64,000 nucleotides of DNA from assembly GCF_014695715.1 (NCBI RefSeq), contig NZ_JACJOT010000009.1, forward strand, positions 186,001 through 250,000, given 5' to 3'. Source of the stretch: Microcoleus sp. FACHB-68. GTDB taxonomy: Bacteria; Cyanobacteriota; Cyanobacteriia; Cyanobacteriales; Oscillatoriaceae. Shown piece by piece: positions 60,144 through 61,934 of the stretch. The position numbers and the translations under genes were made by a program. The notes beneath the pieces were generated by a model that saw only the letters and a list, made by a program, of their open reading frames with translations, was not told the origin of the DNA and ran no database searches. The stretch's first letter is position 1; every line of letters begins with the position of its first letter.

Positions 60144-60929
60144 CACTTTGAGCAGGACACTTAAACCCTGTCTTTGCTAATTAGGTTGCTTTGCTTGTGA
60201 CAGGACGAACCGGCCTATCTTCGCTTAAACAGGCGAGCGAGACGGTGAAATTGCCAGGACATCGGGAACTTCTAAAAGCAGGCATAGGCAAGATTGCTCT
60301 TAACAAAATTTGCTGCCAAACACTGAACTTTTCGATGCCACTAACCGCCGTTTTAAGTTGCCGGCTCAGCCTTCAAATAAACGAAGGCAAAACTAAACAG
60401 TAAAAAGGCAGAAGTAAAACTTAAACGTGTTTGCTTTTGCCTTTTTACATGACTTTTAATTATTATAATGTTATGCAAATAAAGTGCAGAACAGCTTCTC
60501 AAGTAACGGGAGATCGGGTAGTGCAGGCCAATCGGGTGCCGGCACGGATGCAATAAAGACGATCCAACGATAAAATCGTGGGGATCATTAGCCGATCTAA
60601 CTCCCAAAATGAACGCGGTTGTCGAGACGGGTGCTCTACTCAACAAAATAGTTCCACCATCGAACAAGCTCTTGTATCGCTTATCCCTAGGCAAATGCAA
60701 TCAAAATTGCTCGCACAATTCTAGTTGCATTGGCTCAGGGGCGGGAGTAGGGTGCATCACGACAAACGCCTTGGGGAAGCCGAAAGCAGAACCTAGGCGG
60801 GTTTTTGAAGAGGATTTCGCACCGGCAAATCCTCCCAATCGCAACCCCAATCTAATGGCTCACAAAAAAAGCCAGAGTCGCCTTTGGTTCGCTAACGCGC
60901 TAGAAAAAGGGGCCATCTAGAGGTAAGCG
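60144..60929. other. Noncoding-looking stretch with a bidirectional hairpin
   Basis: About 790 bases with several open frames on both strands but none with family character or a start signal. A strong hairpin at 60400-60448 is described separately. GC-richer, structured-looking sequence at about 60490-60800 could hide an RNA gene, but it matches no RNA that I know. Confidence 0.4.
60400..60448. terminator. Bidirectional terminator-like hairpin
   Basis: Arms GTAAAAAGGCA (60400-60410) and TGCCTTTTTAC (60438-60448) form an 11-bp stem whose A and T runs give U-tracts in both directions. The loop has further partial pairing. It lies well beyond any stop codon, about 260 bases after the small hypothetical gene. 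Confidence 0.65.
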
Positions 60930-61934
60930 ATGTACACAGATCGACAATCATTCAGACACTGGAACGTCAGTAGTTCTGACACTGAGTTGATTCAACAGTG
61001 GGTGGGGTGCCAATCTCCCCGCCGACGGCGGTCTTCCTGGCGCTTGGCCAAGCAGTTCCAAGCTTTTGCCGGCAAACCCTTCGCCCAAGTCACAAGAGCC
61101 GATATCCGGGCGTTTGGAACCGCTAAAGCTTCCGAGGGTGTTGCCCCCCAAAAAGTCGCGCAGATGCTGTTGGGGATCAAGTCCTTGTTCATCTTTGGAT
61201 ACGAACTCGGTGTGCTGCCGGTGAACATCCCCCCAGAACGGTGGCCAAAAATTCGACTCAAAAAGCGTTCTCGTCGTAAGAAACCTGCTCGGAAGTTGGG
61301 ATTCGGTTTGGGGTTGAGTGTTTGTTGTTTGGCGCTGATAGTGCCAGGATTTCTCAACAAGGTAGAATCTACCCCACCGGCATCCAGTCTCACAGCGAAG
61401 GAGTGGGATGAACCCAAAGTATCGGGACAGTTGAGTGATTTATACGCCCAAACAGCAACGCCTCTCAAAAGTCCTAACACGAAAGCTTTTCTGGATTTGA
61501 TTGCTGTAGCAGAAGGAACGGCGGGATCAGACGGCTACCGCACTCAATTCACCGGCGCTAAATTTGACAGTTTCCACACTCATCCCGATGAAGTGTACTG
61601 CGCCTATTCTAACGGGCGGCGCATTTGCTCAAGTGCGGCGGGGAGATATCAATTTTTAAAGCCAACTTTTGACCGGCTTAAACGAAAACTGGGATTGCCA
61701 GATTTTGGCCCCCGATCTCAAGATTTAGCAGCGATTGAATTAATTCGAGAACAAGGCGCTTTGGAAGATATTGAAGCCGGCAACATTAAAGCCGCTTTAC
61801 GAAAAGTCTCAGCCATTTGGGCTCATGTTGAAGGTGCCGGTTACGGGCAACCCGAACACCCCTTAGATAAGCTAGAGGCGATCTACTGGCGGGAACGAAA
61901 AAAATATGAATTTCCCTCACAGGCGCAAAAATAG
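60930..61934 (+). CDS. Integrase-type DNA-binding domain + transmembrane helix + lambda-R-like lysozyme
   Basis: A 334-residue fusion. Residues of about 15-105 (TELIQQWVGCQSPRRRRSSW to IKSLFIFGYELGVLPVN) are the N-terminal SAM-like core-binding domain of XerC/phage-type tyrosine recombinases; the catalytic R-H-R-Y domain is missing. A run of basic residues and one transmembrane helix (about 122-141) follow. From about residue 187 comes a lambda R/GH104-like lysozyme fold: FLDLIAVAEGT with the catalytic Glu position, SAAGRYQFLKPTFDRLKRKL, FGPRSQDLAAI, and GAGYGQPEHP. The topology predicts DNA binding inside and peptidoglycan cleavage outside. It is not adjacent to any phage structural gene. 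A frameshift-free fusion with native codon use suggests a domesticated gene. The N-terminal assignment is slightly less firm than the C-terminal. Confidence 0.85.
   Translation: MYTDRQSFRHWNVSSSDTELIQQWVGCQSPRRRRSSWRLAKQFQAFAGKPFAQVTRADIRAFGTAKASEGVAPQKVAQMLLGIKSLFIFGYELGVLPVNIPPERWPKIRLKKRSRRKKPARKLGFGLGLSVCCLALIVPGFLNKVESTPPASSLTAKEWDEPKVSGQLSDLYAQTATPLKSPNTKAFLDLIAVAEGTAGSDGYRTQFTGAKFDSFHTHPDEVYCAYSNGRRICSSAAGRYQFLKPTFDRLKRKLGLPDFGPRSQDLAAIELIREQGALEDIEAGNIKAALRKVSAIWAHVEGAGYGQPEHPLDKLEAIYWRERKKYEFPSQAQK

Follow-up and report, generated by a model that had tools for sequence, protein, structure and literature searches.

Positions 60930-61934 of the window (i.e., the whole stretch of 64,000 nucleotides that was analyzed) are occupied by a single uninterrupted ORF on the forward strand, which starts with ATG and specifies 334 amino acids plus a stop. 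The gene occurs once in its own 6.5-Mb genome and is laid out as follows.

60930..61934, forward strand: whole gene, consisting of a core-binding (CB, SAM-like) domain, a basic patch, a transmembrane (TM) helix, and a GH104/lambda-type lysozyme; architecture kept in 59 genomes
60920..60923, forward strand: Shine-Dalgarno-like GAGG, 7 to 10 nt 5′ of the ATG, from the sequence; same in both congeners
60978..61214, forward strand: SAM-like CB domain of the tyrosine recombinase type, residues 17 to 95, four helices (Pfam, profile, model, and Foldseek)
61254..61295, forward strand: basic patch RLKKRSRRKKPARK, residues 109 to 122, placed on the cytoplasmic side by the positive-inside rule (sequence; charge in 45 orthologues)
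61296..61355, forward strand: predicted TM helix, residues 123 to 142, directly after RLKKRSRRKKPARK (hydropathy; low-confidence region in AF2)
61356..61469, forward strand: variable linker, residues 143 to 180, the least conserved part (linker/TM omega, 0.43; full-length model)
61470..61907, forward strand: lambda-R-type (GH104) lysozyme/lytic transglycosylase domain, residues 181 to 326 (PHROG; homology to PDB 1am7)
61512..61514, forward strand: catalytic Glu195, counterpart of lambda lysozyme Glu19 (alignment; invariant in the 23-member alignment)
61599..61601, forward strand: Cys224, pairing with Cys233 in a predicted β-hairpin, probable disulfide (conservation and model)
61626..61628, forward strand: Cys233, partner of Cys224 (conservation and model)
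61635..61652, forward strand: AAGRYQ motif, residues 236 to 241, each position at least 95% conserved in 45 orthologues

A sample of 391 genomes of the order was searched with a lysozyme profile and a CB profile, and the loci were then read; lineages are denoted by family (f) and genus (g) codes. Fusion genes of about 330 to 390 codons with both domains were found in 59 of these genomes, exactly one copy in each (8 genomes of f1, 43 of f2, and 8 of f9). The three-part protein is a real, conserved gene, and chance is excluded because conservation extends to its whole architecture. A preliminary description, made from the letters of the locus, had proposed an intact ORF with these three parts and had made its reading depend on homologues keeping the N-terminal region and on the gene occurring beyond this genome. 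The frame is indeed open, the CB domain is part of the fusion in all 59 genomes, and the architecture extends to other genera and three families. Full-length copies are 93 to 94% identical within the genus, where one relative (L002) is a MAG of Microcoleus vaginatus WJT46-NPBG5, and 44 to 56% identical in other genera of the family. The frames of the CB domain and the lysozyme are split apart in two g84 genomes, and the orthologue in G006 (L010/L113) has expanded tandem TGxRxVNTPPPES repeats between the CB domain and the TM helix. Among the matches listed from the 391 genomes, no other fusion partner of the CB domain was seen, and fusion-level scores were reached nowhere outside the order in a phylum-wide sample of 339 genomes. 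The gene is missing from several filamentous relatives (g55 and g97) and is therefore dispensable.

For the query protein alone, the Pfam match to Phage_int_SAM_4 (residues 36 to 87; E = 0.0021) lies below the gathering cut-off, so that relatives were needed to establish the identity of the CB domain. Pfam SAM_4 was found in 16 of 23 orthologues (best E, 3.7e-7), and a profile of the orthologous CB domains retrieved full-length tyrosine recombinases with E values of 1e-26 to 1e-14, as well as XerA by sequence (E = 0.056). In the ranking of this profile over the 391 genomes, the 59 fusion genes occupy the top places (E ≤ 1.3e-26) and are followed by ordinary integrases of 280 to 350 amino acids (E from 2.9e-26, mostly ≥1e-21), which makes the domain homologous to the recombinase core-binding domain. 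Consistently with the initial assignment of the N terminus to an integrase SAM-like domain, and with structure prediction set beforehand as the test, the isolated CB domain was modeled by AlphaFold not as a disordered segment but as a four-helix SAM-like fold with high confidence (pLDDT, 91.3; pTM, 0.83). Top PDB matches of this model in Foldseek were XerA (TM-score, 0.65), 3nrw (0.79), lambda Int (0.69), and Cre (0.67), and nearly all PDB matches are tyrosine recombinase core-binding domains; in a BFVD search, viral integrases lead. The Foldseek E values are modest (best, 0.04; none below 0.001), as is usual for many small helical domains, and the fold assignment relies on the agreement between the identities of the PDB matches and the sequence profile.

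The catalytic (R-H-R-Y, Phage_integrase) domain of recombinases, already reported missing in the preliminary description, has no match in the protein and was not seen in the neighboring genes. The closest relatives of the CB domain are full-length cyanobacterial Xer-like integrases, and fold and sequence profile are shared with tyrosine recombinases of the XerA/XerC type. Unlike the latter, the fusion protein lacks the catalytic domain, has a TM-lysozyme portion attached, and forms a separate branch, and its CB domain is more basic (net charge of +7.9 versus +3.5 in integrases). K49 and K84 are retained in the fusions, whereas the surface around residues 33 to 37 is altered with respect to integrases (T to R and Y to W). 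The conserved residues of the domain in 45 orthologues are largely structural (W24, F43, F46, and S85-L86).

The C-terminal domain matches the PHROG endolysin family phrog_90 (E = 3e-41), and residues 184 to 318 align with lambda lysozyme 1am7 (E = 5e-25), which places E195 opposite Glu19; E195 is invariant among the 23 aligned orthologues. By homology, the domain belongs unambiguously to the GH104/lambda-type lytic transglycosylases, and the lambda-R-like lysozyme with catalytic Glu and AGRYQ motif that had been recognized in the sequence is upheld by this alignment and by conservation. In lambda lysozyme, which is a lytic transglycosylase, the catalytic residue is Glu19 (PMC6916166). The phage lambda R protein (PDB 1am7 and 3d3d) has the same catalytic domain, catalytic Glu, and AGRYQ motif, but it is a free phage lysis protein, whereas the fusion is chromosomal and membrane anchored and carries a Cys pair and a cytosolic recombinase domain. 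The Cys224/Cys233-type pair was present in 18 of 18 thinned fusion rows and in both members of a second type of fusion, with an IS6 transposase part (see below), and in 43 of 53 other cyanobacterial lysozymes versus 3 of 18 viral ones.

The TM helix has a mean Kyte-Doolittle value of 1.74 over 45 orthologues, with only 1.06 to 1.5 in some (genus g5), where such a weakly hydrophobic helix might be cleaved or span the membrane incompletely. The 20 amino acids that precede the helix have a mean net charge of +5.6, compared with +0.2 after it, and the charge drops across the helix in 43 of the 45 orthologues. Since the Cys pair is found in the fusions but is rare in viral lysozymes, it fits an oxidizing periplasm. 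The topology anticipated from the positive-inside rule, with the N terminus inside and the lysozyme outside, is thus well supported as a prediction from the charge bias and the invariant Cys pair. In the full-length AF2 model, the SAM domain and much of the lysozyme are modeled and the TM helix and linker are of low confidence; domain packing is therefore uninformative.

Phylogenies of the two domains argue for a common history. The CB domains of the fusions form one branch versus 25 integrase CB domains (SH-aLRT, 96), their lysozymes form one branch (85) versus other cyanobacterial and viral GH104 domains, and the distances of the two domains correlate with each other (r = 0.92; Mantel, 0/2000). 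Because the fusions form one branch in each tree and the distances are correlated, there was probably one fusion event followed by joint inheritance of both domains. Median omega values, calculated as pairwise NG86 dN/dS over pairs that are not independent, were 0.29 for the CB domain, 0.43 for the linker/TM region, and 0.15 for the lysozyme. Both domains are under purifying selection, which is weaker on the CB domain, whose evolutionary rate is roughly double that of the lysozyme.

The gene stands alone in the chromosome, next to ordinary chromosomal genes (an amino acid ABC transporter and an aldose epimerase here, others elsewhere). The ABC transporter neighborhood is common to genera g1 and g3, and no operon or neighbor common to different families was found among the loci compared. 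In no phage or plasmid record does a match extend over 80% of the protein, and matches in IMG/VR viral contigs start only at residue 145 onward. Conservation outside prophages, proposed at the outset as a check, is borne out by the chromosomal neighbors and by the lack of a phage or plasmid record with the whole arrangement; together with the single fusion branch, the same observations led us to reject a prophage or relic gene. A tRNA-Lys gene lies 217 bp downstream. This tRNA is a common type of integration site, but its role as an attachment site was rejected, since of the loci scanned only those from this genus have it close to the gene. An upstream ORF (60609-60920) was likewise discarded as a partner gene because a frame-shifting indel between the congeners marks it as noncoding, yet the leader (60500-60929) is unusually well conserved at the DNA level in the genus. 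Within this leader, about 100 bp upstream of the gene, lies the palindrome GAGGATTTCGCACCGGCAAATCCTC (60810-60834), which is kept with small changes in both congeners and is otherwise absent from the genome save for one place with 2 mismatches and three with 3. It may be an operator or form an RNA hairpin; the reading that the CB domain uses it as an operator was rejected, given that a search upstream of the gene in other genera did not recover it. The hormogonium-polysaccharide gene product HpsA scored above the cut-off in 23 of 25 fusion-bearing genomes tested (of the other two, one genome is 55% complete and gave no match, and one gave a partial match) and also in most of the fusion-negative genomes tested. 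This distribution speaks neither for nor against hormogonium release, which the preliminary description had suggested as a conceivable role beside septum or cell-to-cell opening; none of these roles drew support from the results.

A parallel arrangement was found in two genomes of other families (f19 and f27), where L018:1396-2523(-) and L019:1501-2610(-) encode proteins of 370 to 376 amino acids that combine a truncated IS6 transposase, a basic patch, a TM helix, and a GH104 domain. The IS6 part matches NCBIfam with E values of 4e-26 and 5e-29 over model positions 2 to 120 of 202. The usual catalytic motif of IS6 transposases is DET; the first catalytic Asp seems to be replaced in these proteins (VVER/VVQT), and the part is apparently catalytically dead. 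HpsA had no match in either genome. The CB and IS6 fusions are alike over the full linker, TM helix, and lysozyme and share a recombinase-derived cytosolic domain, basic patch, and lysozyme type, but the IS6 fusions occur in other families and contain an unrelated DDE transposase part, and their lysozymes branch away from those of the CB fusions, thus indicating an independent capture. TM-lysozymes of family f10 consist of a basic Pro-rich tail, a TM helix, and the lysozyme, with no CB domain. The cytosolic parts to which cyanobacteria join this lysozyme are thus varied, and on at least two occasions they came from a recombinase. L157:58-1986(+), from another order of the class, encodes an AAA_35 ATPase followed by a TM helix and a degenerate GH104 domain without the catalytic Glu, a possible sensor or pseudo-enzyme.

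Architecture, fold, single origin, purifying selection, chromosomal setting, and an intact catalytic Glu being established computationally, we consider it fairly probable that the protein is a lytic transglycosylase which is anchored in the inner membrane, acts on the cell's own wall, and has a domesticated recombinase domain for its cytosolic tether. It would be a bitopic inner-membrane protein with its C-terminal GH104 domain in the periplasm, where this domain presumably trims the cell's own peptidoglycan. The CB domain would have been captured once from a cyanobacterial tyrosine recombinase, with loss of the catalytic half. Folded and strongly basic, it may now act as a tether on the cytosolic side, where its binding to DNA or to a partner in the cytosol would position or restrain the lysozyme. 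The membrane-bound own-wall reading is supported by the precedent of MltG, a lytic transglycosylase that is bound to the membrane, acts on the cell's own wall, and consists of a TM helix, LysM, and a catalytic domain (PMC8135044). MltG has the same combination of TM anchor and periplasmic lytic transglycosylase domain but differs in its catalytic family, its LysM, and the lack of a recombinase domain (PMC8135044); an MltG-type catalytic domain had no Pfam or NCBIfam match in the fusion protein.

A stricter version, which we regard as possible but doubtful, makes the protein a coupler of DNA to the wall, in which the CB domain would bind chromosomal or incoming DNA and thereby place or gate the lysozyme (e.g., above the nucleoid, where the septum closes, or at a site of DNA transfer). 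Purifying selection on a CB fold more basic than that of integrases, the retention of K49 and K84, and the recruitment in the same position of another recombinase part that also binds DNA (the IS6 transposase) are in line with such coupling, but the palindrome as a candidate target is not conserved beyond the genus, the CB surface is changed around residues 33 to 37, and positive charge beside the membrane may do no more than satisfy the positive-inside rule or bind lipids. Equally doubtful is that the CB domain is merely a generic folded cytosolic stub or dimerizer that fixes the N-in topology of what is functionally a TM-anchored lysozyme. The f10 proteins manage without a CB domain and the conserved CB residues are largely structural, as this would predict, but a stub would not require a 90-residue fold kept across three families at an omega of 0.29.

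One-component regulators of the CadC/ToxR type have a cytosolic domain of the nucleic acid-binding type (winged helix), a single TM helix, and a periplasmic domain, in this order. The fusion shows the same order of parts and its gene stands alone, so that the lysozyme fold might sense wall fragments in the periplasm while the CB domain acts on DNA. We deem this improbable, as an invariant catalytic Glu and a kept active-site motif would be needless for a pure sensor; the N terminus is CB/SAM-like instead of a winged helix, an intact enzyme forms the periplasmic part, and CB domains are not known as transcription factors. A gene for defense, abortive lysis, or phage-derived lysis is slightly more improbable: the lysozyme is of the phage endolysin type and wall-cutting effectors could kill an infected cell, but PADLOC models gave no match, the neighbors are neither defense nor phage genes, the gene is absent from phage and plasmid records, and its distribution resembles vertical descent rather than patchy exchange. 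That an integrase remnant was by chance read through into the lysozyme gene of a prophage (pseudogene or artifact), as the sub-threshold individual Pfam match and the nearby tRNA-Lys could suggest, is refuted by the 59 genomes, single origin, purifying selection, and high-confidence fold; in the scanned loci, moreover, the tRNA accompanies the gene in this genus alone.

How wall hydrolases of Gram-negative cells are informed of the positions of chromosome and septum is an open question, usually answered via multi-protein relays. If the anchored transglycosylase with its cytosolic tether is what we propose, a single polypeptide would link the two sides of the membrane physically and directly, through a recombinase-type domain on the inner side and a lytic transglycosylase on the outer, and would be easy to dissect genetically by deleting one domain or mutating one Glu. 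The protein is also an example of mobile-element parts being domesticated in parallel as components of the envelope: two recombinase domains unrelated to each other occupy the same position ahead of the TM-lysozyme portion. A more tentative idea, which we think rather unlikely, is that on two or more occasions in cyanobacteria the part with which a mobile-element recombinase grips DNA became a cytosolic arm through which DNA positions or gates wall cutting. The parts are known; no earlier description of their combination, its conservation, or the IS6 parallel was found in the open-access literature, within which the first impression that no system of this kind had been described holds.

Related lysozymes occur in further settings. 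A single protein (L153:544-2409(+)) combines a signal peptide-like N terminus, a caspase domain, a GH104 lysozyme, and an M23 peptidase, and one genome (G004) has at least five further short genes for GH104 lysozymes, possibly prophage-borne. A second, distant lysozyme family of 220 to 250 amino acids (VMxGGDPYIRALMRTIxASEAN...), represented by L025-L029, L031, and many genomes of the order, usually occurs once per genome throughout the order and class.
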